From Streptomyces griseus subsp. griseus (GTDB lineage: Bacteria; Actinomycetota; Actinomycetes; Streptomycetales; Streptomycetaceae), in NCBI RefSeq assembly GCF_000720255.1, contig NZ_JOJE01000032.1, positions 58,658 to 122,657 on the forward strand: a DNA stretch of 64,000 nucleotides. Reading direction: 5' to 3'. Within the stretch, counting starts at the first letter, position 1; every line of letters begins with the position of its first letter. Made by a program: the position numbers and the translations under genes. The notes under the pieces are model-generated. The model ran no database searches. It saw only the letters and a program-made list of their open reading frames with translations, and was not told the DNA's origin. Shown here piece by piece: positions 28,072 through 45,902 of the stretch.

Positions 28072-28317
28072 TCACTCTTCGGTTTTCGTTCCGTCCCGCC
28101 TCTGCGTGCGCCGGGTGGCGCGCTCCGCGGCGAAGACGTCCTCCAGGCGGAACAGCAGCGCCCGGCCGGCCCGGCCCGCGGCGGTGAGGCGGCCCAGCTG
28201 GACCCACTTGCGGATAGTGGCGGGGGCCACACCGACCTCGCGGGCGGCGAGCTCACCGGGGATGAGAGCGGGGGCGCCGCCCTGACGGTCGTGCGGCCGG
28301 TCGCGCGGCGCGGTCAT
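28072..28317 (-). CDS. Small HTH (excisionase/MerR-like) DNA-binding protein
   Basis: An 81-aa protein with one HTH of the excisionase/BldC-like type: IPGELAAREVGVAPATIRKW, then QLGRLTAAGRAGRALLF. Its start overlaps the stop of the upstream gene by 4 nt (ATGA). Position at the edge of the phage-tail cluster suggests control of that cluster. No integrase is present, so a role in excision is unlikely. Confidence 0.8.
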   Translation of the reverse strand: MTAPRDRPHDRQGGAPALIPGELAAREVGVAPATIRKWVQLGRLTAAGRAGRALLFRLEDVFAAERATRRTQRRDGTKTEE

Positions 28318-29096
28318 CGGGCGGCCTTCCGGTCGGTCCGCGCGGCCGGGGTGATACGACGCTCGGCGGTGGCGGGGCGCGCGGCGGTGCTACGGCGTGC
28401 GGCGGTGGTACGGCGCTCCCACTCCCCCTCGGTCCAAGTGTGGCGGTAGGCGGGGTCGTCGCGGCAGCCGCAGTGCGGGTCCGCGCAGCGGCAGGCCGGA
28501 TTGACGCAGAGGACGGCAGCGCGGTCGGGAAAGGCCCGCAGCGACACGGAGTCGCACCAGGGACAGCGGCCGGACATCCGTACGACGGTCTCGGTGTCAC
28601 CCAGCGCGCGGGCGCAGCGGCGGGCCATCCGGCGGGCCTCGTCGCGGACGTGGGCGGCGAGGACGGGGTCGACGGCGATGTCGTCCAGGAGTGCGGCGAT
28701 CCGGCGCAGCCGCTCGGGGACGGTGACGCGACGCGGGCGCGGCAGGCCGAGACGGTCGCGCACCGCCTCCTCCAGCTCCACCACACCGTCCGTGATGTCG
28801 CGGATGGTGTCGGAGATGTGCAGCCGCAGCGGGGCCGCGCTGTGACCCGGGGCCGTGAGGCCGTGGCGCTGCTGGAGGAGGAGTGCCTCCTCGCGTTCCT
28901 GGCGCAGCCGGGCACCGAGGCCGGGCGGCGGCGGGACCGCCGGGCGGGCCGTCGCCGAGGTGCGGCCCGGGACGAGTTCGGTGGCGAGTTCGGGGAACTG
29001 CTGGGCGAGCTGACCGATCCAGAGGGCAGCTTGCGCGGTCGGCTGTTCCTGGCGGTCCGACGGAGCGGACTGGCCACATGGGTCGGTGATCGGCAT
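28314..29096 (-). CDS. Cysteine-rich protein of the tail cluster, unknown function
   Basis: A 260-aa protein not recognised by name. Residues about 55-120 form a helical region; residues about 175-225 carry a zinc-binding-like run of cysteines (CPWC, later CVNPACRC and CGCRDD), and the tail is Arg/Ala rich. The ATG at 29096 follows AGGGGGA, a strong ribosome site; a longer frame to 29219 has none. It is coupled to the small HTH gene downstream and divergent from the HTH regulator at 29307; the shared upstream region holds palindromic sites. A regulatory, DNA- or RNA-binding role is inferred from the zinc motif and context. Confidence 0.7.
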   Translation of the reverse strand: MPITDPCGQSAPSDRQEQPTAQAALWIGQLAQQFPELATELVPGRTSATARPAVPPPPGLGARLRQEREEALLLQQRHGLTAPGHSAAPLRLHISDTIRDITDGVVELEEAVRDRLGLPRPRRVTVPERLRRIAALLDDIAVDPVLAAHVRDEARRMARRCARALGDTETVVRMSGRCPWCDSVSLRAFPDRAAVLCVNPACRCADPHCGCRDDPAYRHTWTEGEWERRTTAARRSTAARPATAERRITPAARTDRKAAR

Positions 29097-29157
29097 GAGG
29101 TCCCCCTGCTGGTACGGGCCGAGCCCGGATGGAACGAACGCCGTCAACCCTGCCAGA

Positions 29158-29177
29158 TTGCGTGCGCGCTCGCAACG
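29158..29177. promoter_or_regulatory. Palindromic operator candidate, site 1
   Basis: TTGCGTGCGCGCTCGCAA is an 18-bp near-perfect palindrome (a single symmetric pair mismatched). The same word TTGCGTGCGCGC recurs at 30000, and a related TTGCGCGCGCGG lies on the minus strand at 29257-29268. The site is 60 bp upstream of the minus-strand gene and 130 bp upstream of the HTH gene. Confidence 0.55.
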
Positions 29178-29231
29178 TACCGCGATCATCCACCTCTCTG
29201 AAACCTCCTCATGTTGCACTTATTTTCCTTA

Positions 29232-29268
29232 GTGCTTGCCCGCGAGCACGTAATTCCGCGCGCGCAAG
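29232..29268. promoter_or_regulatory. Palindromic operator candidates, site 2
   Basis: GTGCTTGCCCGCGAGCAC (29232-29249) is an inverted repeat, followed by the minus-strand word TTGCGCGCGCGG at 29257-29268. Both lie 40-75 bp upstream of the HTH regulator start, where an autoregulator would bind. Confidence 0.5.
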
Positions 29269-29306
29269 CAAGCTAAACTTGCCTCCTCCTAGGGAAGCGA
29301 GCAGAG

Positions 29307-29825
29307 ATGACCAGCCAGGATCTGGACGCGTTCGCGGCATGGGTCGAGGACCTCATGCGGGAGCGCGGCTACGACATCGACAGCCCTCGCGGCGGGGGGA
29401 AGTCCCGGATCGCGGACGAGGCCGGCGTACACCGCGCCGCCGTCACCCGCCTGCTCCAGCGGCAGAGCATGCCGGACCTCGAGACCACACGCCGGCTCGC
29501 GCGCGTACTGGGCGTTCCCGTGCGTGACATGCTCATCCGCTCCGGCCGGCTCACGGCCGAGGAACTGGCCGACCCCCAGGCGTACCTGGCCTCTCCGCAT
29601 CCACCGGGCGGGGACATCGGCCGCCGCCCCACCCTTGAGGAGGTGGCCGATCTGCTGGGCGTGCCCGCCGACCGGCGCGACATGTTCGTGAGAGTGGTGG
29701 AGCAGTTCCTGCCGACCGACACGGAGTCGGTGCCGGTGCCGGTGCCGGTGCCCCAGGGACTCGCGCACTCTCCTTCTTCCGCTTCTTCCGCCTCTTCCGT
29801 TTCTTCCACTTCCTCCGCCGACTGA
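29307..29825 (+). CDS. XRE-type HTH regulator of the tail cluster
   Basis: A 172-aa regulator. The HTH spans about residues 12-70 (GGGKSRIADEAGVHRAAVTR, then MPDLETTRRLARVLGVPVRD). The end, after residue 140, is low-complexity: VPVPVPVP followed by a Ser/Ala-rich stretch ([14 protein letters not shown]) coded by TTCCNC-type repeats. The ATG has GGAAG about 10 nt upstream. It is the first plus-strand gene before the tail genes and is divergent from the Cys-rich protein. Palindromic sites lie on both sides, so it probably represses or activates the cluster. No LexA- or RecA-linked cleavage motif is visible. Confidence 0.85.
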   Translation: MTSQDLDAFAAWVEDLMRERGYDIDSPRGGGKSRIADEAGVHRAAVTRLLQRQSMPDLETTRRLARVLGVPVRDMLIRSGRLTAEELADPQAYLASPHPPGGDIGRRPTLEEVADLLGVPADRRDMFVRVVEQFLPTDTESVPVPVPVPQGLAHSPSSASSASSVSSTSSAD

Positions 29826-30189: not shown

Positions 30190-30603
30190 ATGACCACGCC
30201 CACCCCACCGAGCGCCTTCCCCGATGTCGAGGCCCTGGTCGTCGACATCCTGGAGGCCGACTCCGCACTCTCCACAGCCCTCGTCCGCGTCGACGCGCCG
30301 GACGGATTCGACGGCAGGACCGCCGCCGTCCTCGTCAACCGGCGCGGCGGCGCCTGGATCGGCGAACTCCACGTCGACCAGCCGCTCATCGAGCTGGAGG
30401 TGTACGGCCCCACCAAGGAGGCCGCGCACACCCTGGCGAACGCGGCCCGCCGCGCACTGCTCGCCGCGGCCGGCAACCGCTACGGCAGGAACCAGATCAC
30501 CGAGGTCGAGGAACAGGACGGCCCGCGCTGGCTGCCCGACTACCTCTACGCCGCGGCCAACCGCTACGTGTGCGTGCTCAAGGTGTTCCTGAACGTCTAC
30601 TGA
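30190..30603 (+). CDS. Phage tail terminator-like protein
   Basis: A 137-aa protein matching the small tail terminator/minor tail component of siphophages (gpU-like role: caps the tail tube). Features are the DVEALVVDILEAD start, WIGELHVDQPLIELEVYG in the middle and a final VCVLKVFLNVY. It lies just upstream of the major tail protein gene, the standard position. GAGGTG is 7 nt upstream of the ATG. The family call rests on position and size as much as on sequence. Confidence 0.7.
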   Translation: MTTPTPPSAFPDVEALVVDILEADSALSTALVRVDAPDGFDGRTAAVLVNRRGGAWIGELHVDQPLIELEVYGPTKEAAHTLANAARRALLAAAGNRYGRNQITEVEEQDGPRWLPDYLYAAANRYVCVLKVFLNVY

Positions 30604-30752: not shown

Positions 30753-31352
30753 ATGGCAGGCACCAACTCCTCCGAGATCCGCATCGCCGGCGTCGGCCGC
30801 CTCTTCGTCGCGAAGGCCGACACCAAGGTCCCGACGGCCTTCTCCGGCAACTCCGCCACCGACTGGGGCGCCGACTGGACGGACCTCGGCTACACCTCCG
30901 GCGACGGCGTCACCTTCAGCAAGAAGGACAAGCTGGAGCCGGTCGACGTGTGGCAGGCCGTCAGCCCGGTGCACTTCGTCTACTCCGACCGGGACCTGAC
31001 CCTGAAGTTCTCGCTGCTCCAGTTCAACGAGGACACGCTGCCGTTCTTCATGGGCGGCGGCAAGGTCAGCCCGGTGGCCGGCGCCACGGACGTGTTCCAG
31101 TACGACATCGCGGACCGTCCGTACGCCGACGTCCGCGCGCTCGGCCTGGAGTTCACCGACGTCCAGGCGAGCGACGGCTCGGCCGTCACCTACCGCTTCG
31201 GGATCCCGCGCGGCCAGGTCACGGCGGCGGACGACATCAAGCTGGCCCGCAAGTCCGCGACCCAGCTCGGCATCACCTTCACGGCCATGGCAGGCGCCGA
31301 TGGTTCGGCACTGGCGAGCTTCGTCATGAAGGACGACTCGTACGCCGCCTGA
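30753..31352 (+). CDS. Major tail (tube) protein
   Basis: A 199-aa protein with the features of an actinophage major tail protein: IRIAGVGRLFVAKADTKVP, then FVYSDRDLTLKFSLLQFNED, and a C-terminal ASFVMKDDSYAA. It forms the stacked hexameric rings of a non-contractile tail. AGGAGA is 9 nt upstream. It is flanked by strong hairpins at 30639 and 31359, which would isolate an abundant mRNA. No sheath gene is seen, so the tail is not contractile. Confidence 0.85.
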   Translation: MAGTNSSEIRIAGVGRLFVAKADTKVPTAFSGNSATDWGADWTDLGYTSGDGVTFSKKDKLEPVDVWQAVSPVHFVYSDRDLTLKFSLLQFNEDTLPFFMGGGKVSPVAGATDVFQYDIADRPYADVRALGLEFTDVQASDGSAVTYRFGIPRGQVTAADDIKLARKSATQLGITFTAMAGADGSALASFVMKDDSYAA

Positions 31353-31474: not shown

Positions 31475-31765
31475 ATGGCCCGTTTCGACGTCAACGCCGC
31501 CCGCGCCCAGCGCCTCGAAGCCCTCGGCCGCACCTGGTCGTTCGAGCTCGACGGTGATTCCTTCACGCTGCCCACCGAGCTGACCCGGGCCACCGCCCGT
31601 GCCCTGCGGGACCTCGACGACAACGACGTCGACGGGCTGCTCGGGCTGCTCATGGGTGAGGAGCAGTTCGCCCGCTTCGAGCGGCACGAGGTCACCATGC
31701 AGGACATCGCCGCCATCCTGGAGGCCTACGGCAAGGAGACCGGGCTCGGCCTGGGGGAAGGCTGA
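31475..31765 (+). CDS. Tail assembly chaperone, short product (gpG-like)
   Basis: A 96-aa protein. Between tube and tape measure genes siphophages place a chaperone pair made by programmed frameshifting. This one begins MARFDVNAARAQRLEALGRT, and its C-terminus carries the slippery stretch CTG GGG GAA GGC TGA. It has GAGGAG upstream. See the extended product below. Confidence 0.85.
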   Translation: MARFDVNAARAQRLEALGRTWSFELDGDSFTLPTELTRATARALRDLDDNDVDGLLGLLMGEEQFARFERHEVTMQDIAAILEAYGKETGLGLGEG

Positions 31766-32184
31766 GCCTCGTCGGGTTCGTCGACGAACACGCCGAGGCA
31801 CTCGAAGCGGATCTGCTCCGCTACTACGGCATCGACCTGCTCGACTGGCACCGTGACCGCCTCTCGGCCCGGCGGCTCTCGGTGCTCATCAAGCACCTGC
31901 CGCGTGACAGTGCGGTCAACCGGGATCTGTACGGGGAGGCCGCGGAGTGGTCGGTGACCGACCATCTGCTGGCCGCGGCGGTGGACCAGCTGGCGGCCGC
32001 CAACTGGATGTTCGCCACGGTCAACACGGCCGAGGACGGCGAGGGCCCGGAACCCCCGGTACCCGTACCGCGCCCGGGCGACCCAGTGGAGGAGGAGCGG
32101 GACGTTCCCGTTGGCGACACCCGATCGCCGACCCGGGACGATTCCACCCCGACCCCGGTCCAACTCGCCCGCTTCTTCGGCTGA
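31475..32184 (+). CDS. Tail assembly chaperone, -1 frameshift product (gpGT-like)
   Basis: At about 31753-31759 (G GGG GAA) a -1 slip leads from the short frame into one that stays open to the TGA at 32182. The continuation reads through SLVGFVDEHAEALEADLLRY, GIDLLDWHRDRLSARRLSVL and HLPRDSAVNRDLYGEAAEW, a typical actinophage T-part, with no start codon and ribosome site of its own in the right place. The total is about 236 aa. P-site GGG re-pairs perfectly; the A-site GAA to GGA is imperfect. An independent start inside the second frame (ATG-less, or GTG) is the alternative. Confidence 0.7.
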
Positions 32185-32443: not shown

Positions 32444-33415
32444 CTATGGGCCGGTCCTGGTTGTCGTCCTGGTCGCGGTGTCGGCCCTTCGCTCTGCCTT
32501 CCCCAGTTCTTCGGCGAGGGCCCGGGCCTTGTCGGAGAGCCGGGGGCGGTCCTCGGGGCCGGGGCCGGGAGTTCCGGGCGGCTCCTGGTGCTCTTCCGGT
32601 GCGTCCGGGCGGCGGCCCTTCTCCCGTCCGGCGGGGGTGTCACCCGGCCTGGTCAGCGGAGGGACACTGGGCCGTCCGTTGCGCCGGACCACCCGGCGCC
32701 GGTCTGAGGGTGCCGAACGCTCGCGCACCTGGCGGGCGGAGAGCAGTATGTCGCCCCCGCCCCTGTCGTCGTCCGGGCCGCCGTCCGAGCCGCCGTCCGG
32801 CACATGCTCCTCAGCGGGCACATCCTCGTCCGAAGGCGTCGGCGTCGGCGTCGGCGCACCGTCCGCCACCGACCGCTCCCGTTCGCCGCGCTCCTCCACT
32901 CGCGTCACCTCCGGCGGAGGCCGCAGGAGTTGGAGGTGGGGCAGGGGGATGACCTCGGCGCCCTGTTCGCCCTCGGGGCTGCGGGCCCGGAGGGGGCGCC
33001 GACCGGTGCGGGCGTCCTCCTGGCCCCTGAGGTACGCGGCGGTGATCCGCTCCTCATAAGCGCGCCGGACGGCGGGCAGTTGCTCGGCGACGACGTCGGC
33101 CCAGCCGGCGCTGTAGGCGGCCAGTTCACGCCGTTCGAGCTCGGCGCGGGGCAGGACGAGGAGGTCTTCGGGGGCATGTCCGAGCCGGTGGACCAGCTCG
33201 GACAGGCGGGCGATGAGGTGCGGCAGATCAGGGAATTGTTCAAGCCAGTCGATCGCCCGGTCGTCCCGCGTGTTGCTCGCGTCGCCGTCCACCCCAGGCA
33301 CCCCGTAGGCCTTGCTCTCGTCCGCTGCTCCTTCGCGCGCCCCCGCGCGAGGACGGCTGCCCGCCGTCCACCGTCGCACACCCCGTCCTCCATGTCCCTC
33401 CGGGGGCCCAGCCAT
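32444..33415 (-). CDS. Unknown protein on the opposite strand inside the tail cluster
   Basis: A minus-strand frame of up to 323 aa. Residues about 55-150 are probably folded, with WLEQFPDLPHLIARLSELVH and ELAAYSAGWADVVAEQLPAV. The C-terminal half is Pro/Arg/Glu-rich and looks disordered. The start is uncertain; GTGs at 33301 and 33292 are alternatives to 33415. A Y-x-AGW-x-D motif is shared with the small plus-strand protein at 33653. It breaks the tail gene order between chaperone and tape measure, so it is probably a moron gene. No function known. Confidence 0.55.
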   Translation of the reverse strand: MAGPPEGHGGRGVRRWTAGSRPRAGAREGAADESKAYGVPGVDGDASNTRDDRAIDWLEQFPDLPHLIARLSELVHRLGHAPEDLLVLPRAELERRELAAYSAGWADVVAEQLPAVRRAYEERITAAYLRGQEDARTGRRPLRARSPEGEQGAEVIPLPHLQLLRPPPEVTRVEERGERERSVADGAPTPTPTPSDEDVPAEEHVPDGGSDGGPDDDRGGGDILLSARQVRERSAPSDRRRVVRRNGRPSVPPLTRPGDTPAGREKGRRPDAPEEHQEPPGTPGPGPEDRPRLSDKARALAEELGKAERRADTATRTTTRTGP

Positions 33416-33652
33416 TCACATGTCGTTCACCGACGGGAGGACGGCCGGATCCCGACCCCAAGAACCTGACGCACCGTCCATTGCGCCCCCTGCATCACCG
33501 CAGGTCCGCACGCGGATGAGGAGGAGCTGCCGAGGCAAACACCGCCCGAACCACAGGATTACTCGTACACTAGTTCGAACACGCGTCTCGAACGCCTCCG
33601 TAGGCGCCACGTGTACCACCAGCCCAACGGACACAAGGGAAAGCAGGCCGAC

Positions 33653-33847
33653 ATGGCGACTGGCACGAGCAACCACCCGCAGCAGCCGATCGACACCTAC
33701 ACCCGTCTCGCCCGCCTCCTGCGCACCCCCGCCGCCAGCCGCGAGGCCCTGCTCGACCAGGTGTACGAAGAGCTGTTGGACCGGGAGTCACGCGCCTACG
33801 CCGCCGGCTGGTCCGACGCCCTGACGGAGGCCCGCCGGACCCGCTGA
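33653..33847 (+). CDS. Small unknown protein with Y-x-AGW-x-D motif
   Basis: A 64-aa helical protein (TRLARLLRTPAASREALLDQ, then SRAYAAGWSDALTEARR). The ATG at 33653 is preferred, with AAGGGAAAG upstream; an earlier ATG at 33611 is possible. The motif AYAAGWSD matches AYSAGWAD in the opposite-strand protein next to it, hinting at related domains. It follows a region with the palindrome GTTCGAAC (33573-33580). No function known. Confidence 0.6.
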   Translation: MATGTSNHPQQPIDTYTRLARLLRTPAASREALLDQVYEELLDRESRAYAAGWSDALTEARRTR

Positions 33848-33928: not shown

Positions 33929-34351
33929 TTGTCCACAACGCTCGCGAGCGCAACGAACTACGGCATCCCATTCATGATCATTTCGGTACCCTTCGGCCTC
34001 GTCTCACTGCTTTTCATCCCCAAACAACTGCGTGAGCGGCGGCTCAAGAGGACGGGTGTCGAAACCGTCGCGGTCTGCCAGGAGCGCATACGCCGCGGCG
34101 GCACAGCGGTGGAACTTCTGAACTGTTCCTTCCGCACGGCCGACGGCGACGAGACCTGGGCGCTCGTCAGTGCTCCGAAGCCGGCGCCGCACGTCGGTCA
34201 GGAGTTCCCGGTCGTCTTCGACGCGCGGAAGCCCTCGGTGGTCGAAAGCAGCTACTACCTCTCATCGCGAGGCACATGGGTCGGCTACGTGATCCAGTCG
34301 CTCTTCGGCCTGCTGCTCGTGACAGGCGTCGTGATCGGCGCCATCTCCTGA
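33929..34351 (+). CDS. DUF3592-like membrane protein
   Basis: A 140-aa protein with a TM helix at each end (about residues 12-30, IISVPFGLVSLLF; and 116-138, VIQSLFGLLLVTGVVIGAI) and a soluble beta-rich part between them (VAVCQERIRRGGTAVELLNC, then VGQEFPVVFDA). This is the layout of DUF3592 proteins. TTG start with GGGGGAG 6 nt upstream. Inside the tail cluster but not a tail protein by type; possibly a moron. Confidence 0.65.
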   Translation: MSTTLASATNYGIPFMIISVPFGLVSLLFIPKQLRERRLKRTGVETVAVCQERIRRGGTAVELLNCSFRTADGDETWALVSAPKPAPHVGQEFPVVFDARKPSVVESSYYLSSRGTWVGYVIQSLFGLLLVTGVVIGAIS

Positions 34352-34452: not shown

Positions 34453-35064
34453 ATGACCGAGTACGTCAGCCAAGAGGAAATGGGCCAGACGCGAACCGCC
34501 ATTTCCAAAGAGATCAAGAGTGCGATAACCGCGTACGACAACGGGAAGGCGGCCGAGGATCACGCGTGGGTCGCCGACTGGAAGACCCGGCTTCCCACGG
34601 AGCTGAACGGCATCAAGTCGGAGTTCACCGTCTTCAAGGCGGAGTGGGTTCCGATTCTCGCCACCCTGCCGGGGCTCTGGAGCTTCGAGGAACTGATCAA
34701 GAAGCAGTTCCGCCTGGACTACAACCAGTACGGCTTTCTCACCCGGCAGTCCGCCGAGGCCGCAGGAGGCGGAGGGGGCGCTCCAGGCCCGCGGGGTGAA
34801 CCGGGGCCTCCCGGACCGCGCGGACCCGAGGGCCCGCAGGGCCGCGAGGGCCGACGCGGACAGCGCGGCGCGCCCGGGCGCCGAGGCCGACCGGGCCCGC
34901 GCGGTGACCAGGGCCGCCAGGGACGGCCGGGCCCGGCCGGTCCCCCGCCATCGACCGAGGCGTTGCGCAACGCCACTCAGGACGCCCGCGGCGCGGAGCA
35001 GGCACTCCGCGGCGTGGTGGACCGGGCGGAACAGCTGCGCACGACCATCGACGGCGGCCAGTGA
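34453..35064 (+). CDS. Collagen-like protein (Gly-X-Y repeats)
   Basis: A 203-aa protein. Residues 1-105 are helical, with no signal peptide. Residues 109-165 are 19 uninterrupted Gly-X-Y triplets, Pro- and Arg-rich (GAPGPRGEPGPPGPRGPEG and so on), which would form a collagen triple helix. A short helical C-terminal segment (about 170-203) could act as a trimerisation or capping domain. The ATG has AGAGGA upstream. Collagen-like stretches occur in phage tail fibres and structural proteins, and this gene lies directly upstream of the tape measure gene, so a fibre or whisker role is reasonable. Stability without hydroxyproline is unknown. Confidence 0.8.
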   Translation: MTEYVSQEEMGQTRTAISKEIKSAITAYDNGKAAEDHAWVADWKTRLPTELNGIKSEFTVFKAEWVPILATLPGLWSFEELIKKQFRLDYNQYGFLTRQSAEAAGGGGGAPGPRGEPGPPGPRGPEGPQGREGRRGQRGAPGRRGRPGPRGDQGRQGRPGPAGPPPSTEALRNATQDARGAEQALRGVVDRAEQLRTTIDGGQ

Positions 35065-37635: not shown

Positions 37636-38556
37636 ATGGCCGAGACGACCACAACCGCATACACCGAGGACACCGCACCCGGCTCACTCATCACCCGCGA
37701 TGGGCAGATGCAGTGGGCCGGACTTCTGCTGGGCCCCGGCACGCCCTACGAGATCGACCGCGGCGGACTGAGCGGCTGGGAGGACCTGCCCGAGTACGAC
37801 GCCTCGGACGCCGACCACCCCACCGCGCACGGCGCCTGGCCGGGCGCCCGCTACGCCCGGCCCCGCAAGATCGGCGGCACGGTGTGGACCGTACCGTCGG
37901 AGGACAGCACCGAGTCCTCGCTGTCCGCGATGCGCGCCCTGCGCCAGGCCCTGCTGCTCGGTGACGCGGAGCGCTGGCTGGCGGTGCGGCTGCACGGCGA
38001 GACGCTGGCCGTGCGGGCCCGGGTCAGCCAGCGCGTGCTGGCCGCCGACCGGACGTACACCACGCAGGGCGTGGCCCGGGCGTCCGTGCAGTGGTACGCC
38101 ACCGACCCGCGCCGCTACTCGGTCACCGAGCAGAGCGCGGTCACCGGCGCCCCGCAGCCGGAGAGCGGACTGACCTGGCCGCTGACCTGGCCGCTGTACT
38201 GGGGGCAGTCGGCCTCCACCGGAGACGTGCTCGCCGCCAACTCCGGCTCGGCGCCGACGCATCCGATGATCACCTTCACGGGCCCGTGCTCCAACCCGAC
38301 GGTGACCGACCGCACCTCCGGCCGCCGGCTGCGCTACGAGATCACGCTCGCCGAGGGCGACGAGCTCGTGATCGACACCGCCGCCGGCACCGTCACCCTC
38401 AACGGCACCGCCTCCCGCCGTGACACGGCCGCGCCGGACAGCAGCCCCGAGGAACTGTTCGCCTTCGAACCGGGCCGCGCCCAGCTGGCGTTCCGGCCCG
38501 ACACCGACGGGGCGGGCGCCCGGATGACGGTCCGCTGGCGCGACGCGGAGTGGTGA
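37636..38556 (+). CDS. Distal tail protein (Dit-like)
   Basis: A 306-aa protein with the usual siphophage Dit pattern: IDRGGLSGWEDLPEYDAS near the front, then the beta-rich part IGGTVWTVPSEDSTESSLSA, SVQWYATDPRRYSVTE, and a C-terminal galectin-like half (about 200-306). It forms the ring connecting tail tube and baseplate. It directly follows the tape measure genes, as in phage genomes. TGAGGTG is 9 nt upstream. Confidence 0.8.
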   Translation: MAETTTTAYTEDTAPGSLITRDGQMQWAGLLLGPGTPYEIDRGGLSGWEDLPEYDASDADHPTAHGAWPGARYARPRKIGGTVWTVPSEDSTESSLSAMRALRQALLLGDAERWLAVRLHGETLAVRARVSQRVLAADRTYTTQGVARASVQWYATDPRRYSVTEQSAVTGAPQPESGLTWPLTWPLYWGQSASTGDVLAANSGSAPTHPMITFTGPCSNPTVTDRTSGRRLRYEITLAEGDELVIDTAAGTVTLNGTASRRDTAAPDSSPEELFAFEPGRAQLAFRPDTDGAGARMTVRWRDAEW

Positions 38557-38637: not shown

Positions 38638-39855
38638 ATGAACCTGCGCAGCTCATGGCTGGCCGAGACCGGCCAGACCCGCGAGGACACCCGCCTCACC
38701 CAGCTGGGCGCGACCACCCCGACCAACCCCCTGGAGGTCCGCTCCGGCATCCTCCCCGGCTCCTACGACGGCCAGTACCGCCTCTCGGGCTTCTGGATGC
38801 AGGGCCGCGCGGGCACCATGTCGGTCACCGTCCACGAGGGCCGGGCCGTCGTCCAGGCCGACGCCAACCAGGGCGCCTACCCCGTCACGCTCTCCGAACC
38901 GCAGTCCCTCACCTTCACCGACGGCGAGGCCAACGACCGCGTCGACCTCGTCGTCCTGAAGGTCTCCGACAAGCTCTACGACGGCTCGGCGCAGTCCACG
39001 GTCTCCCTGGAGATCATCAAGGGCGAGGCGGACACCAACCCGACCCCGCCGCCGCTCCCGGACGTCGCGCTGCCGATCTACCGGGTCACCGTCCGGGCCG
39101 GGATCAGCGCCGGCAAGGGCGGCATCAACTGGAACAACGACGTGACGGACCTGCGCTCCAGCACCGTCGCGATCGGCGGCATCCTCCCGGCCTACGGCGA
39201 GACCGGCAACGGCGCCTACCCGGGCCAGTACCGCGACTCCGGCGGCGCCCTCCAGCGCTGGGACGGCTCCGCGTGGGTGTCGTACCCGAGCGCCCTGGGC
39301 GGCATCGCCCCGGCCGGCACCGTCACCACGGCCAGCTACACCGGCCAGTACCGCGACAGCTCCTCCGGAGTGCTGCAGCGCTGGAACGGCTCGACCTGGG
39401 CGTCGTACCAGCCGGTCGCCAACTGGACCGACTACACGCCGGTCTGGCGCAGCACGAACGGCGCCGCGCCCGCCATCGGCAACGGCACGCTGGCCGGCTC
39501 GTACGTGAAGACGGGCAACGTCGTCCAGCTGCGGATCTATCTCAAGATCGGCTCGACGACCAACCTGAGCGCCCAGGACGCCAACGCCGACTGGACCTTC
39601 TCCCTGCCGGTCGCGCCGGTGTCCACCGCCTGGAAGCTGGACGGACGGTTCATGACCGCCGAGGCGCACGACGTCTCGGCGCTCCTGACGTACCAGGGCG
39701 CCGGTCAGCTGTCGACGGCGAACGGCGGCACGATCCACCAGGTCCGCGACGCCCTCAAGACCAACGGGACCGTGTGGGACAAGTCCGCGCCCTTCACCTG
39801 GGCCGCGGGCGACGTACTGACCCTCCACGGCAGCTACGAGGCCGCCTCCTCCTGA
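38638..39855 (+). CDS. Receptor-binding/minor tail protein 1
   Basis: A 405-aa protein. Residues 1-180 are a conserved N-terminal module (MNLRSSWLAETGQTREDTRL, RSGILPGSYDGQYRLSGF). Residues about 190-258 hold two copies of a Y-x-GQYRD-x(3-5)-LQRW-x-G-x-x-W repeat. Residues 260-405 form a variable, beta-rich C-terminal domain of the receptor-binding type (NWTDYTPVWRST onward). AGGAGA lies 8 nt upstream. It is the first of three tandem paralogues with divergent C-termini, between distal tail and hub-like genes. Confidence 0.8.
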   Translation: MNLRSSWLAETGQTREDTRLTQLGATTPTNPLEVRSGILPGSYDGQYRLSGFWMQGRAGTMSVTVHEGRAVVQADANQGAYPVTLSEPQSLTFTDGEANDRVDLVVLKVSDKLYDGSAQSTVSLEIIKGEADTNPTPPPLPDVALPIYRVTVRAGISAGKGGINWNNDVTDLRSSTVAIGGILPAYGETGNGAYPGQYRDSGGALQRWDGSAWVSYPSALGGIAPAGTVTTASYTGQYRDSSSGVLQRWNGSTWASYQPVANWTDYTPVWRSTNGAAPAIGNGTLAGSYVKTGNVVQLRIYLKIGSTTNLSAQDANADWTFSLPVAPVSTAWKLDGRFMTAEAHDVSALLTYQGAGQLSTANGGTIHQVRDALKTNGTVWDKSAPFTWAAGDVLTLHGSYEAASS

Positions 39856-39878: not shown

Positions 39879-41069
39879 ATGAACGCACGTTCCGCCTGGC
39901 TGTCCACGGACGGCCAGACCCGTGAGGACACCCGGGTCGCCGCCCTGGGTGCCCTCACCCCCACCTCGCCGATCGGCACCCGCTCCGGCATTCTGCCCGG
40001 CTCCTACGGCGGGGAACACCGCGTCTCCGGCTTCTGGCTCGCGGGCGCCACCGGCACCATGACCGCCACCGTGAGCTCCGGCCGGGCCGTCGTCCAGGCG
40101 GCCGAGTCCCGCGGCGCCTACCCGGTGGCGGTCACCGACGGCGTCCCGCTCACCTTCGAGGACGGCGACGCCCTGTACGGCCGGATCGACCTGGTCGTCC
40201 TGCGGATCCACGACCCCGCCTACGACGGCGGCGAGCGCACCGAGGCCGCCGTCGAGATCGTCAAGGGCAAACCGGAGGCCACCCCGACCGCGCCCGCGGC
40301 ACCGGGCCTGTCCCTGCCGCTGTTCGAGGTCGTGGTCCCCAAGGGCCGCAGCGCCGGGACCGGAGGCATCGACTGGGGCACGGCGCTGACCGACCTGCGC
40401 CCCACCACCGTCGCCGTCGGCGGGATCCTGCCGACCGTCCCCGACGACATGGCCATCGGCGCCTATCCGGGGCAGTACCGCGATGTCAACAGCGCGCTGC
40501 AGCGCTGGAACGGCACCGCGTGGGTGCCGTACCCGAGGGACGTGGGCGGCATCGTCCCGGCCGGCGCGCTCACCAACGGCGGTCACCCCGGCCAGTACCG
40601 CGACTCCGCCGCCGGGCAGCTCCAGCGCTGGAACGGCACGGCGTGGCTGCCGGCCGTGCCCGGACCGGCGTTCGCCAACACCCTGGACGCCGGGTCGACG
40701 ACGTCGACCACGTACACCGCGACACTCGCCGACGCGTCGGCCACCCCGCTGACGCTCACCTTCACGGCCCCGCCGTCCGGCTCGGTCCTCATCGGCCTGG
40801 GCGCCCGCATGCTCACCCGGTCCAGCGAGACCGTGTCCGCCTACATGTCCCCGCAGGTCACCCAGGGCTCCACCGTCATCTGGGCGGCCGACGACGAGCG
40901 CACCGCGACGAGCTCGGGGGACATCGGCAAGTCGGTGTCGACCCAGCTGCGGATGAACGGCCTGGCCGTCGGCACCACCTACACGGTCACCGCCATGTAC
41001 CGGTCGACCAGCGCCACGGTCACCTGCTGGTTCGACGCCCGCTATCTGCGCGTCGACCCGATCGCCTGA
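39879..41069 (+). CDS. Receptor-binding/minor tail protein 2
   Basis: A 396-aa paralogue with the same N-terminal module (MNARSAWLSTDGQTREDTRV, RSGILPGSYGGEHRVSGF), two GQYRD...LQRW repeats (about 185-250) and an unrelated C-terminal domain (about 255-396, FANTLDAGSTTSTTYTATL onward, rich in Thr and Ser). The ATG at 39879 follows GGAAGGA; longer readings upstream overlap paralogue 1 and are not used. Confidence 0.8.
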   Translation: MNARSAWLSTDGQTREDTRVAALGALTPTSPIGTRSGILPGSYGGEHRVSGFWLAGATGTMTATVSSGRAVVQAAESRGAYPVAVTDGVPLTFEDGDALYGRIDLVVLRIHDPAYDGGERTEAAVEIVKGKPEATPTAPAAPGLSLPLFEVVVPKGRSAGTGGIDWGTALTDLRPTTVAVGGILPTVPDDMAIGAYPGQYRDVNSALQRWNGTAWVPYPRDVGGIVPAGALTNGGHPGQYRDSAAGQLQRWNGTAWLPAVPGPAFANTLDAGSTTSTTYTATLADASATPLTLTFTAPPSGSVLIGLGARMLTRSSETVSAYMSPQVTQGSTVIWAADDERTATSSGDIGKSVSTQLRMNGLAVGTTYTVTAMYRSTSATVTCWFDARYLRVDPIA

Positions 41070-41097: not shown

Positions 41098-42120
41098 ATG
41101 CCCGTACGCTCCGGCTGGCTCTCCCCCGACGCCCAGTCCCTCGAGGACACCAGGGTCGTCCCGCTCGGCACGCTCACCCCGACCTCGCCCGTCGCCACCC
41201 GCTCCGGCATCCTGCCGGGCTCCGCCGACGGCCAGTCCCGCATCTCCGGGTTCACCCTGACTGGCACCGCGGGCACCATGACCGCCACGGTCAGCCCCGG
41301 CCGGGCCGTCGTCCAGGGCGCGGACGCCCGCGGCGCCTATCCGGTCGCGCTCACCGAGTACCTGCCCCTCACCTTCGAGGACGGCGACGCCCAGTACGGC
41401 CGCATCGACCTCGTCGTGCTGAGGATCTACGACGACACCTACGACGGCTCCGGCCGCACCGAGGCCGCCGTCGAGATCGTCAAGGGCACCCCGGCCGCGA
41501 CCCCGGCCGTACCGGCCACGCCCCCTCTCGCCCTGCCGCTCTACGAGGTCGCGGTACCGAAGGGGGCGAGCGCCGGCGCCAACGGCATCCCCTGGGGCAC
41601 GGCCCTCACCGGCCGCCGTACCGCCACGGTCTCCGTCGGCGGCATCCTGCCCGTCACCACGGACACGGCCACCGGCGCCTACCCCGGCCAGTACCGCGAC
41701 AACAATGGCGTCCTGCAGCGCTGGACCGGCACCGCCTGGGCCGACCACCAGCCGCCGATCGCCGTGGAGACCAACACCACCGGCGTCACCGCGTCCGGCA
41801 ACTGGTCGGTGAGCTCGTACAACGCCCGCCGCACGCGCGGTGTCTGCTCCTTCAGCGTCTCGCTCGTCCGGACCACCAGCGCCCTCACCGCGACGGCCGC
41901 CGGGAGCACCAACCCGGGCAACGTCAACGACGAGCTGATCTGCACCCTGCCCGCCGGCTGGCGGCCCGCCCACGACACGTACGCCTCCGCCACCGACGGG
42001 TACGCCGACGGCGGCATCCGCATCAACCCCGACGGCACGGTGTACCTGCTCACCTGGTCGACCAGCGGTGTCATCCAGGTCGGCAACACCCTGCGGCTCT
42101 CCGCCTGCTTCGTGCAGTGA
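41098..42120 (+). CDS. Receptor-binding/minor tail protein 3
   Basis: A 340-aa paralogue. N-terminal module MPVRSGWLSPDAQSLEDTRV and RSGILPGSADGQSRISGF, one GQYRD...LQRW repeat, and a third, different C-terminal domain (about 215-340, with TGVTASGNWSVSSYN and ending LRLSACFVQ). AAGGAG is 6 nt upstream. Confidence 0.8.
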   Translation: MPVRSGWLSPDAQSLEDTRVVPLGTLTPTSPVATRSGILPGSADGQSRISGFTLTGTAGTMTATVSPGRAVVQGADARGAYPVALTEYLPLTFEDGDAQYGRIDLVVLRIYDDTYDGSGRTEAAVEIVKGTPAATPAVPATPPLALPLYEVAVPKGASAGANGIPWGTALTGRRTATVSVGGILPVTTDTATGAYPGQYRDNNGVLQRWTGTAWADHQPPIAVETNTTGVTASGNWSVSSYNARRTRGVCSFSVSLVRTTSALTATAAGSTNPGNVNDELICTLPAGWRPAHDTYASATDGYADGGIRINPDGTVYLLTWSTSGVIQVGNTLRLSACFVQ

Positions 42121-42149: not shown

Positions 42150-43253
42150 ATGACCACCAACACCCCGTACCGCGCGATCTTCTGCGATCTGCGCGAGGAC
42201 ACCACCATCGACATCCTGCCCCTGCGGGACGTCACCGTCGACGACTACATCGGCAAACCCGGATCGCTCTCCGGCACCGTCCCCGTACCCGACGCGGCGA
42301 TGGCCGCCCGCGTCCGCCGCATCGAGGAGGGCCGCACCGCGGTCTACCTCCAGCGCGGCAACGACCTGTGGTGGGGCGGCATCGTCTGGACCAGCACCCT
42401 CCAGAGCGACGACCGGGGCGTGCTGACCCTCGGCATCCAGGCCGCCACCTTCGAGTCGTACGCGGCCCGCCGCCGCATCCGCGCCAACCTGTACTACAAG
42501 GACGCCGACCCGCTGGCCGTCGCCCGTGGGCTGTGGATCAACCTGCAGAAGATGCTGCCCGGCAGCGACATCGGCGTCACGACCGGGGACGAAACCTCCG
42601 GCGAGCTCCGCTCGGGCACCTGGCGCAACGGGGACGAGACGATCTACCTGGAGGCGATCGACGCGCTCGCCGCCGTGGACCCCGTCTTCGAGCACCACAT
42701 CGCCGTCTACCGCGACCCGTCCACCGGTGAGCGGGTGCGCCGGCTGCGGCTGGGCAGCCCGAAGATCAACACCGGGACCACCGACCTGGTCATGGACCGG
42801 CCGGGCAACATCCTGGCGTACACCTTCCCGCGCGACGCCACCCGCGGCGGCACCACCGCCAGGGCGCGCGGGGCCACGGACAACTCCAACCAGGCCGCCG
42901 AGTCCCGCCCGCTGTACGCCGACGCGCCCGAGGCCACGGAGTTGATCAACGCGGGCTATCCGCGCATCGACCTGTCCTCGGACCACAACGAGGTCTCCGA
43001 CACCGCCACCCTGCTGTCCCTGGCCAAGGCCGAACTGGCCGAGGCCACGGGGGCGGTGGTGATCCCCGAGATCACCGTCCGCCTCGACGACCTGGTGCCG
43101 CCCGCCCTGCTCGGCCGGACCGTCCGCATCCGCGTCACCGACGAGTGGTTCACCGAGGGACTGAACAACCGCTACCGGATCATCGGCGTCAAGGTCAGTC
43201 CCTCGCAGCGCGGCCGCCCCGACACCGCCGAGCTCTACCTGGAGGAGGTCTGA
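42150..43253 (+). CDS. Tail hub/tip protein (Gp37-like minor tail protein)
   Basis: A 367-aa protein with features of an actinophage minor tail or baseplate hub protein: IFCDLREDTTIDILPLRDVT, WWGGIVWTSTLQSDDRG and FESYAARRRIRANLYY, and a C-terminal VKVSPSQRGRPDTAELYLEE. The ATG at 42150 follows GGAG 11 nt upstream; a GTG at 42117 overlaps the previous stop and is less likely. It probably forms the tail tip beneath the distal ring. In most siphophages this class directly follows Dit; here three fibre genes intervene. Confidence 0.75.
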   Translation: MTTNTPYRAIFCDLREDTTIDILPLRDVTVDDYIGKPGSLSGTVPVPDAAMAARVRRIEEGRTAVYLQRGNDLWWGGIVWTSTLQSDDRGVLTLGIQAATFESYAARRRIRANLYYKDADPLAVARGLWINLQKMLPGSDIGVTTGDETSGELRSGTWRNGDETIYLEAIDALAAVDPVFEHHIAVYRDPSTGERVRRLRLGSPKINTGTTDLVMDRPGNILAYTFPRDATRGGTTARARGATDNSNQAAESRPLYADAPEATELINAGYPRIDLSSDHNEVSDTATLLSLAKAELAEATGAVVIPEITVRLDDLVPPALLGRTVRIRVTDEWFTEGLNNRYRIIGVKVSPSQRGRPDTAELYLEEV

Positions 43254-43975
43254 TGGCCCAGCTGCCCGAGGACATCATCGACCGGCTGACCGCGATGGAA
43301 CGCCGGATCCAGCAGCTGTCCACCGCCGTCAACACCCGGCCCGCCCTCAACAGGGTCTCCCAGGGCGGAGTGGAGATCAGCGACGGCGGCTACCTTGCCG
43401 TACTGCCGCCGGAGGGCGGGCCGGCCGTGTTCGCGGTCGGCGCCTGGTCCGGCAAGGAGTACGGCCTCGCCATCCGCCGCCAGACCGGCTCCATGGCCCT
43501 GAGCCTGCACAACGGCGACGGCACCTCGACCTCGCAGCAGCCGCTGAGGATCTACGACCGCAACGGCAGGGAGATCTTCGCCGACGACGTCGACACCGGC
43601 GGCCTGGCCCGCCCGTGGCTGTCGATGACGATGCCGACCGACACGGCCCTGGAACGCTGGCCGCGCACCACGTCAGGCAGTTGGTCGACCGTCGCCCGGT
43701 CCTGGAACCCGCTGTGGCAGCCGAAGATGCGGATGTACATCTCGACCTCGGTGTCCGCCGGCGCCACCGGCGAGGTCCGGGTCATGGTCAACGACACCCC
43801 GTGGGGCGGCACCGTCACGGCTCCCGCGGCGTTCGACTACACCGACTTCGTCGTCAACAACTTCAACGCCTCCTTCGGCAACCTGCTCAAGTTCGAGATC
43901 CAGGCCCGCATCGCCTCGGGCACCGGCACGGTGTACGCCCAGCCGCGGATCATGTACGGCCTCCAGACCACCTAG
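43253..43975 (+). CDS. Tail fibre-like protein
   Basis: A 240-aa protein. Residues about 1-35 form a coiled coil (IIDRLTAMERRIQQLSTAVN), then a beta-rich body with a C-terminal jelly-roll-like segment (WGGTVTAPAAFDYTDFVVNN). Its ATG overlaps the stop of the previous gene by one base, with GGAGGAGG upstream. A trimeric fibre or side protein of the tail tip is likely. Confidence 0.7.
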   Translation: MAQLPEDIIDRLTAMERRIQQLSTAVNTRPALNRVSQGGVEISDGGYLAVLPPEGGPAVFAVGAWSGKEYGLAIRRQTGSMALSLHNGDGTSTSQQPLRIYDRNGREIFADDVDTGGLARPWLSMTMPTDTALERWPRTTSGSWSTVARSWNPLWQPKMRMYISTSVSAGATGEVRVMVNDTPWGGTVTAPAAFDYTDFVVNNFNASFGNLLKFEIQARIASGTGTVYAQPRIMYGLQTT

Positions 43976-44002
43976 CCACCGACCTCAGCAGCGGAGGAAC
44001 CC

Positions 44003-44416
44003 ATGGACATCGACCCCACCCAGCCCTGGGGCATCGCCATCGACTACGCCGGCCGCGCCACCCTCACCGAGGAGGGCCACACCGTCTACATCAACGTCAC
44101 CGACACCAGCCTCAGCAGCATCATCACGCCCGACCCGCTCACCGGCCAGTACTCCCCCGTCAGCGTCACCGCCCAGTTCACCGAGACCGGCATCAACGGC
44201 GCCGTGCTGCGCGGCTACGGCCGGATCGGCGTCGAGCCCGTCGGCACGGACCCGGTCGCCCCGGACCCGACGGCCGTGCCGCGCGCCGTCGCCGCGGCGG
44301 TCTCCGACTTCCAGGCCAACACGGAGGCGTACGTCAACCTGTGCGCCCGGTGGACACCGGAGGGCGAGCCGGAACCGGAGCCCGAGCCGGACGACGGCAC
44401 CGAACCCGCCGTCTGA
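44003..44416 (+). CDS. Small tail-associated hypothetical protein
   Basis: A 137-aa protein with WGIAIDYAGRATLTEEGHTV at the start, helices in the middle (AAAVSDFQANTEAYVNLCAR) and a Glu/Pro-rich end (EGEPEPEPEPDDG). No signal peptide. Unrecognised; GGAGG is 6 nt upstream. Position between tail tip and lysis genes suggests a minor tail component. Confidence 0.65.
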   Translation: MDIDPTQPWGIAIDYAGRATLTEEGHTVYINVTDTSLSSIITPDPLTGQYSPVSVTAQFTETGINGAVLRGYGRIGVEPVGTDPVAPDPTAVPRAVAAAVSDFQANTEAYVNLCARWTPEGEPEPEPEPDDGTEPAV

Positions 44417-44499
44417 CCCTCTCCCTTCGCACCCTCACCCACCCGCACCCCGAGCCGCCCGACCGGCCGGGGCTTTCTCATGCCCGGGAGGCACCGCCC

Positions 44500-45381
44500 A
44501 TGGCCAGACCCCTGTCCGCCGACGCCCTCGTGTCCGCCCTGCGGGCCGAGGGCGTCACCGTCGTCGAACACGCCGGATGGCGCACCCACAACCGCAACCA
44601 CAAGGGAAGTTGGGGCCCGCTCAACGGCGTGATCATCCATCACACCGTCACCTCCGGCACCGCGTCCAGCGTCAGCCTCTGCTTCAACGGCCACTCCGCC
44701 CTGCCCGGCCCGCTCTGCCACGGCGTGATCTCCAAGGACGGCACGGTCCACCTCGTCGGCAACGGCCGCGCCAACCACGCCGGCGTCGGCGACCCCGAGG
44801 TCCTCGCCGCCGTCACCGCCGAACGCGCGACGCTGCCCGCCCCCCGCCACAGCACCACGGACGGCAACGCCCACTTCTACGGCTTCGAGTGCGTCAACCT
44901 CGGCGACGGCAGGGATCCCTGGCCCCAGGTCCAGCTCGACGCCATCGAGCGGGCCGCCGCCGCCCTGTGCCGGGCGCACGGCTGGAGCGCCAACTCGGTG
45001 ATCGGCCACAAGGAGTGGACCAGCACCAAGATCGACCCGCGCGGCTTCGCCATGGCCGACCTGCGCGCCCGCGTCGCCACGCGTCTGGCGAGGAAGCCGG
45101 CCGGCTCGGCCCCCGGCTCCACGGCGCCGCAGTACCAGCCGTTCCCAGGCGCCGAGTGGTTCCGCAAGAACCCCAGGTCCGCGATCGTCACGGCGATGGG
45201 CAGGCGCCTGGTCGCCGTCGGCTGCTCCGACTACGCCTCGGGCCCCGGCCCGCAGTGGACCGAGGCCGACCGCCGCTCCTACGCCAAGTGGCAGCGCAAG
45301 CTCGGCTACACCGGTGCCGCCGCCGACGGCTGGCCCGGCGCCAAGTCCTGGGCGGCGCTGAAGGTCCCGTACAGCTCCTGA
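44500..45381 (+). CDS. N-acetylmuramoyl-L-alanine amidase (endolysin)
   Basis: A 293-aa lysin. Residues about 10-190 are the amidase_2 zinc fold: VIIHHTVTSGTASSVSLC, NHAGVGDPEVLAAV and GHKEWTSTKIDP, cutting the bond between muramic acid and L-Ala. Residues about 200-293 form a C-terminal wall-binding part (SYAKWQRKLGYTGAAADGW and WAALKVP). The ATG at 44500 has CGGGAGG upstream. It precedes two holin-like genes, so it probably releases particles by host lysis, as in phages. Confidence 0.92.
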   Translation: MARPLSADALVSALRAEGVTVVEHAGWRTHNRNHKGSWGPLNGVIIHHTVTSGTASSVSLCFNGHSALPGPLCHGVISKDGTVHLVGNGRANHAGVGDPEVLAAVTAERATLPAPRHSTTDGNAHFYGFECVNLGDGRDPWPQVQLDAIERAAAALCRAHGWSANSVIGHKEWTSTKIDPRGFAMADLRARVATRLARKPAGSAPGSTAPQYQPFPGAEWFRKNPRSAIVTAMGRRLVAVGCSDYASGPGPQWTEADRRSYAKWQRKLGYTGAAADGWPGAKSWAALKVPYSS

Positions 45382-45396
45382 GAAACGAGGTCCACC

Positions 45397-45642
45397 GTGT
45401 CAGAGGCCGCCAAGCGAACCCTCCGTACCGTTGTCCAGACCGCTGTCGGCCTGTGCGTCCTGCTGCCGGCGGTCGTGGGCGCCGTCGGCGTCCCCGAGAC
45501 CCTCCCCTGGGTGGCCGGCGCCCTGGCCGTCGCCGCGGGCGTGACCCGCGCCATGGCCCTGCCCGCCGTACAGGCCGCGCTTCCGTCCTGGCTGCGCACG
45601 AGCACGCCGGCCGAAGAGCGCCGAGAGGAGGACAAGGCGTGA
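45397..45642 (+). CDS. Holin-like small membrane protein
   Basis: An 81-aa protein with two TM segments (about residues 8-30, VVQTAVGLCVLLPAVVGAV; and 36-56, LPWVAGALAVAAGVTRAM) and a charged C-terminus (EERREEDK), the class of small phage holins. It starts with GTG, 13 bp after the amidase stop. Confidence 0.75.
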   Translation: MSEAAKRTLRTVVQTAVGLCVLLPAVVGAVGVPETLPWVAGALAVAAGVTRAMALPAVQAALPSWLRTSTPAEERREEDKA

Positions 45643-45902
45643 CCGACTCCTCCGCCTCCGACCGGGCCGTCGTCGCCGTCGAGCTCGAACGGCTGCGCGG
45701 CACCGTCGAGGCCGGCTTCGCGCGGGCCGACGGGCAGCTCGCCCTGCTGGTGCAGCGCAGCGACCAGACCGACAAGCAACTGGCCGACCACGAGCAGCGG
45801 CTGGACGCGCTGGAACGCTCCCGCTGGCCCATCGCCAGCATCGGCGCCCTGGCCGCCGTGGCGACGACGGCCGTCGCGGTCTGGGAACTGACCGGCCGCT
45901 GA
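45639..45902 (+). CDS. Second holin-like protein (coiled coil plus one TM)
   Basis: An 87-aa protein: an N-terminal helix/coiled coil (VELERLRGTVEAGFARADGQ, DKQLADHEQRLDALE), then a single C-terminal TM (WPIASIGALAAVATTAVAVW). Its GTG overlaps the previous stop by 4 nt, with GGAGGA upstream. Pairing of a two-TM and a one-TM protein is common in lysis cassettes, where one may act as antiholin or anchor. Confidence 0.75.
   Translation: MTDSSASDRAVVAVELERLRGTVEAGFARADGQLALLVQRSDQTDKQLADHEQRLDALERSRWPIASIGALAAVATTAVAVWELTGR

Follow-up and report, generated by a model that had tools for sequence, protein, structure and literature searches.

A stretch of 64,000 nucleotides from Streptomyces griseus subsp. 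griseus (contig NZ_JOJE01000032.1; hereafter the window) carries a cluster of phage-tail genes between rpsL and rpoC. As judged from its sequence, the segment at 28072–45902 holds a siphophage-type tail operon that lacks head genes and includes regulators and a lysis cassette. The cluster is best read as a domesticated headless siphophage tail that would make an F-type tailocin-like particle, kept by selection and placed mostly in the rpoC-rpsL gap, a reading to which we give a probability of about 0.68. Assembly of the particle, its release and its killing of target cells are what we infer from these genes. rpsL (27386–27757) and rpoC (45958–49857) are both on the minus strand, and the tail and lysis genes in the 18.2-kb block between them run on the plus strand, opposed to both flanking genes.

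Twenty open reading frames (ORFs) in the window were searched with profiles from Pfam and PHROGs, and the last two small ORFs were searched with those from PHROGs. The matches to tail families agree with an earlier note made from the sequence alone (the original prediction), whose coordinates, gene order and orientation were right (Table 1). The gene order recurs in many genomes, which is more than chance would give. No contractile sheath family was matched in the 20 ORFs (Pfam, PHROGs) or in the last two (PHROGs), and a contractile injection system was rejected on this gene content. F-type tailocins are described in passages of PMC12090994 and PMC8910223 as headless non-contractile tails. The cluster likewise combines a non-contractile tail set with its own lysis cassette, has no sheath match and lacks head, packaging, integration and replication genes. 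The profile matches thus bear out the F-type tailocin-like profile, with its own lysis cassette, helix-turn-helix (HTH) regulators and no head genes, that had been predicted.

Table 1. Features of the tail cluster in the window. Locus counts refer to a set of named loci, the best 80 of 96 matches; TMP, tape-measure protein; RBP, receptor-binding-type protein; G and T, the two parts of the tail chaperone.
Feature	Position	Strand	Support
hthA, small MerR/excisionase-like DNA-binding protein	28072..28317	-	phrog_2474 5e-15; 61/80 named loci, some cut by contig ends
znfB, regulator-like, Cys-rich C-terminus	28314..29096	-	phrog_1568 DNA binding 2e-4; 62/80 loci
Operator-like palindrome TTGCGTGCGCGCTCGCAA between znfB and xre	29158..29175	.	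imperfect relatives at 29254, 30000
xre, repressor-like regulator	29307..29825	+	PF01381 1e-7; phrog_3949 repressor 1e-14; 34% to SV1 gp29 repressor
Tail terminator	30190..30603	+	phrog_123 8e-20
Tail tube protein	30753..31352	+	PF25681 2e-58
Tail chaperone G	31475..31765	+	phrog_10551 3e-27
-1 frameshift slip site GGGGGAA, end of G	31753..31759	+	15-base end of G kept across relatives
T extension of predicted G-T via -1 frameshift	31759..32184	+	-1 frame open
revP, opposed gene, no family match (Pfam, PHROGs)	32444..33301	-	56/80 loci
p78, small protein without assigned role	33611..33847	+	51/80 loci
mem, small protein, two predicted membrane helices (one per end), putative immunity gene	33929..34351	+	hydropathy
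preTMP, hypervariable, directly before TMP1, collagen-like here	34453..35064	+	PF01391 5e-8
TMP1, tape measure	35131..36327	+	phrog_3981 9e-29
TMP2, tandem tape-measure paralogue	36324..37616	+	phrog_3981 3e-24; 79/80 loci
Dit, distal tail protein	37636..38556	+	PF22768 7e-14; phrog_5577 2e-86
RBP1, receptor-binding-type tail-tip protein	38638..39855	+	phrog_3398 1e-60
RBP2, RBP1 paralogue	39879..41069	+	phrog_3398 9e-69
RBP3, RBP1 paralogue	41098..42120	+	phrog_3398 8e-70
Hub/minor tail protein	42150..43253	+	phrog_1885 1e-61 (scanned from 42117)
fib, tip protein, dN/dS near 1	43253..43975	+	phrog_9849 1e-60
p137, no assigned role	44003..44416	+	44/80 loci
Amidase endolysin	44500..45381	+	PF01510 2e-23; phrog_880 3e-77
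Holin-like small protein	45397..45642	+	phrog_4316 (function not assigned); Alderaan likeness
Small lysis-cassette protein, no assigned function	45639..45902	+	phrog_5225 4e-28

Among the 22 ORFs, profiles detected no portal, capsid, large terminase, integrase or replication gene. The search was extended to the rest of the genome that carries the window (9.89 Mb in 265 contigs, 99.8% complete), where four families, portal PF04860, HK97 capsid PF05065, large terminase phrog_9 and PF03354, gave no match on the 265-contig draft. Each head model served as its own positive control, with matches in 3 or 4 of 14 control genomes. A search of the same genome with the SV1 terminase, made without a positive control, also gave no match. 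Head genes elsewhere that yield full phages were among the findings that the original prediction had named as speaking against it; this search of the draft matched no portal, HK97 capsid or large terminase. The same result bears on the view that the locus supplies tails for heads encoded elsewhere, as in a split phage, a satellite or a gene transfer agent. Retention of the terminator, the tail-to-head joiner in phage, is what that view would lead one to expect, but a tail without a head needs one too, to stop the tube from growing. Together with the absence of head matches, this makes tail supply a highly improbable explanation.

Relatives recorded as viruses point the same way. A scan of IMG/VR with G returned 8 relatives, seven of them distant (G at 43–48%, tube at 37–42%). 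Two of these seven were examined, L167 and L171. Both have terminase and portal genes upstream of the terminator-tube-G block, joined in L171 by a protease and a major head protein. An upstream terminase and portal are just what the window cluster lacks, which supports the headless reading. The eighth relative (L165) is an 11.3-kb 'viral' contig with G at 73% and with regulators, tail and lysis genes in the order of the cluster, so headless loci of this type may enter virus collections.

The 3' end of G reads CTGGGGGAAGGCTGA, and the -1 frame continues for 141 codons, to 32184. With one variable base allowed, this 15-base end is kept in 72 of 74 G genes, and 72 of the 74 have a -1 frame that runs open past G for 90 codons or more. 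Siphophage tails classically produce a G-T fusion by frameshifting. The conserved slip site and the open -1 frame argue that G-T would be made by a -1 frameshift in this locus as well. TMP1 is 397–403 amino acids long in all 12 aligned copies, and its profile match is to C-terminal parts. Identity of the tube protein to phage relatives is 24–32% (30 of 33 records listed), and for G none of 50,697 phage records gave a match at 1e-5. Dit, hub and RBP, by comparison, are 41–52% identical to those of SV1-type Streptomyces phages. Because tube and G are far from known phages while these distal proteins resemble SV1-type phages, the tail backbone looks old and the tip replaceable.

Maintenance was assessed from frames and substitution ratios. 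Copies lying wholly within a locus were counted, the window included, and scored as open at 85% or more of the window's length; lengths run from the earliest start codon and are upper bounds. Frames were open for the terminator in 71/71, tube in 71/72, G in 73/73, TMP1 in 81/81, TMP2 in 78/79, Dit in 75/76, hub in 74/75 and amidase in 63/63. The short frames are the hub of L052 and three genes of L091 (tube, TMP2 and Dit), whose assembly may be rich in errors. Ratios of nonsynonymous to synonymous substitution rates (dN/dS; Nei-Gojobori, four or five comparisons per gene), which strong codon bias probably raises by lowering dS, were 0.22–0.51 for tube, G, TMP1 and Dit, 0.30–0.64 for terminator, TMP2, hub and amidase, 0.42–0.85 for the RBPs and 0.75–1.07 for fib. 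By these estimates the core genes are intact and under purifying selection, and the tip proteins diverge. This bears on whether the cluster is a cryptic prophage remnant, a leftover tail module not yet deleted. Its phage origin is plain, with distal genes resembling SV1 at the identities given above, and two copies have a fragmented TMP1. Yet core frames stay open across widely diverged loci under purifying selection, the slip site is conserved, the site and operators recur and no integrase occurs among the 22 ORFs. A remnant was accordingly rejected, with frames open and no broken genes or integrase remnants, and we consider it very unlikely. Identity in rpsG, used as a host marker with L091 left out, correlated with identity in TMP1, Dit, hub and tube (rho 0.28–0.39), xre (0.43), amidase (0.68) and preTMP (0.13). 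These correlations point to partly vertical descent of the cluster, least so for preTMP.

The distribution of the cluster was surveyed in 392 Streptomyces genomes drawn evenly. G was found at E 1e-3 or better in 87, four of them with weak or partial matches, and TMP1 and rpsL were mapped in 80 of the 87, leaving out the window's genome, two already seen and the four weak ones. In 55 mapped genomes TMP1 matched at E 1e-86 or better. It lies 7169–13255 bp from rpsL in 36 of these, always on the opposite strand, more than 350 kb away on the same contig in 7 and on other contigs in 12. Placement in the rpoC-rpsL interval therefore holds for about a tenth of the 392 genomes (the 36 mapped, the window's genome and two others). 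Both flanking genes were found at 35 of the 80 named loci, one at 20 and neither at 25, many of the last being cut by contig ends or by the 10-kb fetch limit. In 12 of 12 G-negative genomes fetched, no cluster gene was found in the interval, which measures 334–1940 bp in 11 and 6249 bp in one. A survey of this interval in other streptomycetes, as the original prediction had proposed, thus shows that the cluster recurs and is not a one-off. The claim that it is fixed inside the interval holds for most mapped copies, but not for the seven distant ones, nor for L124, L128, L129 and L130, which have other neighbours (judged by eye from translations) and apparently occupy other sites; two further intervals hold a different tip, as described below.

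Several related arrangements were seen in the survey. In G012 (L033, L146) the cluster is split between two places on one contig, TMP1-TMP2-Dit at 8.52 Mb and, on the other strand, terminator-tube-G at 8.69 Mb, through rearrangement or an assembly fault. L140, L141, L142 and L143 form a second cluster lineage with TMP1 at 42–43%; within the 20 kb fetched neither TMP2 nor amidase was matched. Three of these genomes have the lineage far from rpsL, and in the fourth it is on another contig. L044 (contig C3 of G004, 37.8 kb), possibly a plasmid-like phage, carries phage-type tail and lysis genes related to those of the window, and G004 also carries a rpoC-rpsL cluster.

The regulator genes are separated by gaps that hold operator-like words. 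The palindrome at 29158 follows the pattern TTGCG.GCGCGC.CGCAA, and its imperfect relative at 30000 stands before the tail operon. Of 61 loci, 53 carry the word GCGCGCAAGC (the form at 29254) in their regulator gaps, and none carries it in the control stretch taken from tube to hub. Other top words were present in the gaps of 36–58 of the 61 loci and in 0–15 controls. One switch serving both promoters is likely on this pattern. hthA only weakly resembles terminase small subunits and excisionases in PHROGs, and codon scoring allows a longer start for znfB at 29219. The regulator block is inverted in many loci, where znfB-hthA, instead of xre, leads the tail genes. Among L051–L130 the hthA-znfB/xre block was seen in either orientation, including at loci in the rpoC-rpsL gap, and inverted repeats around the block of the window are partial. 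Scans of the locus for sigma-70 promoters and terminators gave nothing above chance.

The tail tip varies among loci. The original prediction listed one receptor-binding gene, where the window has three paralogues of phrog_3398. PHROGs files this family as 'head and packaging: virion structural protein'; since the SV1 homologue, gp18, sits between Dit-like and hub-like tail proteins, we read it as tail tip despite that label. There are three RBPs in 35 loci, one in 29, two in 7 and four in 5 (76 loci). Mean identity over 14,028 pairs is 0.54 in the first 205 residues and 0.34 beyond, so that the N-terminus is conserved and the C-terminus variable. Virus fibre knobs, along with receptor-binding or tail proteins of phages, make up most of the top PDB matches of an RBP1 structure model and are suggestive at most. 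In G079 and G290 the rpoC-rpsL interval holds a different tail tip with the same regulators, terminator, tube, G and lysis genes; neither has a Dit or hub match, and the RBP matches are partial (86 residues at 38%, 151 at 43%). Sister clusters of this class lie far from rpsL in G160, G231, G343, G428, G313 and G287. A family of 463–511 amino acids was also seen between fib and amidase in 22 named loci of the L106–L117 type. It is absent from the window type, and the one member tested, from L113 (the cluster of S. griseus NCTC13033), is of tail-fibre type (phrog_14726).

The lysis cassette is informative as to how such a particle might be used. The first of the two small ORFs is 60% identical over 62 residues to the annotated holin of phage Alderaan, and the second is 64% identical to the SV1 and Alderaan proteins that follow the holin-like gene. 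Of the two holin-like genes originally predicted, the first resembles a phage holin and the second belongs to a family with no function assigned, so that a pair of holins is unproved. Instead of being a released weapon, the tail might act within the producer's own mycelium, inside hyphae or from one to another, in development or cell death, a role like that of the contractile injection system of S. coelicolor. The host is multicellular and could keep a tail for such a role, and PMC10066040 and PMC12237407 place the contractile tail-like system of Streptomyces in the cytoplasm and connect it with cell death and the life cycle. Release by lysis is the better fit to the presence of the amidase in 68 and the holin-like gene in 60 of the 80 named loci, and the variable tips and the polymorphic pair described below fit strain recognition. 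No TTA codon occurs in the 22 genes read and so there is no sign of direct bldA control, which was set aside. A hyphal device is in our judgment unlikely.

Of 74 loci, 60 had a preTMP-type ORF called immediately upstream of TMP1. This hypervariable gene and its membrane-protein neighbour, like the tripling of the tip gene, had been missed by the original prediction. Over the same 496 pairs, mean normalised similarity is 0.09 for preTMP versus 0.71 for TMP1. The preTMPs are about 150–380 amino acids long and of coiled-coil character, often with one or two membrane helices, and many have, by eye, a C-terminal helix like LR..V..L..ALG. Five relatives were compared with PHROGs and three gave weak tape-measure matches, which may only reflect coiled coils; those of L078 (phrog_167, residues 148–270 of 1555, E 2e-4) and L067 (phrog_1535, 121–243 of 1152, E 0.01) are two of them. 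It is possible that preTMP and TMP1 represent one long tape measure that has been split. Two preTMPs and one mem had no relative among phage records. The helices of mem are predicted by hydropathy alone. Of 10 mem proteins compared with DUF3592, six matched below the Pfam cut-off (best 25.0 vs 25.3 bits) and four, the window copy included, did not match at all.

The two genes tend to be inherited together. Linkage was tested in 28 loci with duplicate assemblies removed, five class-3 loci, as well as the mem copies of L055 and L059, being set by hand. preTMPs were called similar above 0.15 with TMP1 similarity below 0.9, and mem above 0.2. mem was similar in 9 of 16 preTMP-similar, TMP1-distant pairs versus 7 of 362 other pairs. 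Mean mem similarity was 0.244 in the preTMP-similar pairs versus 0.083, and none of 5000 label permutations reached 0.244. The nine concordant pairs come from four groups (L051/L056/L067, window/L062/L094/L130, L098/L115 and L112/L113/L134). Between L134 and L113, which differ in class and site, preTMP is 41% identical over 227 columns and mem 41% over 116, and TMP1 matches in two shorter blocks only. A first co-inheritance test, with 18 loci, gave a weaker signal (rho 0.18, a value reached in 46 of 2000 permutations). With 20 loci rho was again 0.18 (110 of 5000), and the pair-mean statistic was reached in 0 of 5000. A further test that held duplicate assemblies (e.g. L031 = L067) is superseded by the 28-locus test. 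Since neighbouring genes are exchanged together anyway, linkage shows a cassette and not an interaction.

Other systems suggest what the cassette may do. Passages of PMC12090994 state that producers are immune to their own tailocin, and the passages of that paper and of PMC8910223 name no dedicated immunity gene; no tailocin immunity protein tied to a tape measure turned up in the literature passages covered. HK97 gp15 and TP-J34 Ltp are membrane exclusion proteins, and phages get past their block when tape-measure genes are altered or exchanged, as passages of PMC10883804 describe. Because such membrane-bound proteins are overcome by tape-measure changes, immunity is a natural reading of mem, which differs from them in lying inside a tail locus, beside a variable tape-measure-adjacent gene, and in being highly polymorphic; its role is a candidate one. 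By this analogy the data suggest that preTMP and mem form an ejected-protein and immunity pair. A fuller proposal, which we offer tentatively and hold to be somewhat doubtful, is a kin code in which preTMP, as a hypervariable segment of the tape measure, would be ejected and meet a cognate membrane immunity protein, the cassette being exchanged between clusters at different chromosomal sites and stacked in some strains, so that killing would be decided twice, at the receptor and by membrane immunity.

Several results weigh against these readings. For the tail, the head search covered few families on a draft of 265 contigs, and an unusual head could be missed. dN/dS of the terminator, TMP2, hub and amidase is higher than that of the other core genes, and the fragmented TMP1 copies are those of G184 and G278. 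The RBP1 model was discarded as poor (mean predicted local distance difference test score 62), with no PDB match below E 1e-3 (best E 5.5e-3). For preTMP, the best match of the L110 protein is to residues 662–789 of 946 (E 0.004), which is not N-terminal, and two of the five tested against PHROGs had no tape-measure match. For mem, a candidate was found between T and preTMP in only 32 of 86 loci with preTMP (some duplicate assemblies), and none was called in most loci of the L069–L090 type (S. gardneri, S. exfoliatus and others). The window mem is on the tail strand, unlike 35 of 41 candidates. Of the 16 preTMP-similar pairs, seven are discordant in mem, each with L059, L118 or L108 as a member; L108 and L122 have a common mem (0.51) and unlike preTMPs.

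The immunity part has its own rival, namely that preTMP and mem are mere neighbours and mem is an unrelated membrane protein or defence gene in a hypervariable spot. Adjacency alone could make the two travel together, the concordant pairs come from few groups, mem is missing from many loci, and DUF3592 is a family of unknown function. The stretch also takes up other genes, such as an HTH protein of the 257-amino-acid type found in the mem/preTMP stretch of four loci. Mere neighbourhood explains less well why a mem-type gene sits at a similar place, opposed to the tail genes, in five clusters (L133, L134, L136, L139 and L148) that belong to a second class, class 3, and have unlike tail tips. 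It also leaves aside the tandem related two-helix mem genes on the opposite strand before preTMP in L051 (two by filter, 7546–9018) and L056 (three, 6451–8657), with more by eye, which look like stacked immunity genes. We put the chances of mere neighbourhood at about even.

Under the favoured reading of an F-type tailocin-like particle, the locus might work as follows. xre, with hthA and znfB, would hold the operon off by binding operators that precede znfB/xre and the tail genes. Induction would lead to a short tail of fixed length, with G-T made by -1 frameshifting, and the amidase and holin would lyse the producer and free the particles. At about 0.15 nm per residue, the tail would measure about 60 nm if its length is set by TMP1 alone, and roughly double that if TMP1 and TMP2 act end to end. 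The variable tip proteins would choose the target, as their variability suggests. Tape-measure proteins would then be ejected and breach the target membrane, as expected from F-type tailocins and siphophages, and preTMP with the linked membrane protein would spare kin. A strong resemblance in working to F-type tailocins is thereby predicted.

F-type tailocins are called rare in passages of PMC10811719, a 2024 paper in which F-pyocin and monocin, together with its own rhizoviticin, are exceptions among mostly R-type tailocins. These three are headless non-contractile tails, as the present locus is predicted to encode. Passages of PMC6872733 give Listeria monocin modules for regulation, tail and lysis, the same three as in our locus, and neither excision nor replication genes. 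The locus differs from the three in its Streptomyces host, its rpoC-rpsL site and its up to four tip paralogues, and also has two tape-measure paralogues, a hypervariable preTMP and a linked membrane protein. The phages SV1 and Alderaan (Picardvirus, Austintatiousvirus) have Dit, RBP, hub, fib, amidase, holin-like and last small gene in the same order, at 41–64% identity (fib 33–42%). Unlike the locus they have heads and one 805-residue tape measure each, SV1 has an integrase, and neither had a terminator, tube or G match to the locus in the comparison made. Gordonia phages, Propionibacterium PFR1 and Streptomyces Kromp have a related tube (24–32%, among the matches listed) and share the tube only. 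The SLP/CISSc systems are likewise phage-tail-derived and widely kept in Streptomyces, according to passages of PMC8910223; they are contractile, whereas the locus has no sheath family match. Tail-like systems of Streptomyces in the literature searched were contractile ones only, and no description of the locus was found there, full texts being mostly unopened and subscription papers and most preprints outside the search. Elsewhere in the window, Rfam places the small RNA scr4677 at 21691–21934 on the plus strand.

If the proposed reading is true, Streptomyces has a family of F-type tailocins placed beside core transcription and translation genes. Passages of PMC8910223 call the killing mechanism of F-type tailocins largely unknown. 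Two tape-measure paralogues, and a preTMP tied to a candidate immunity gene, would offer a genetic handle on F-type killing and on how producers are spared. The particle is probably a released weapon against other strains, and the preTMP-mem pair may tell friend from foe.

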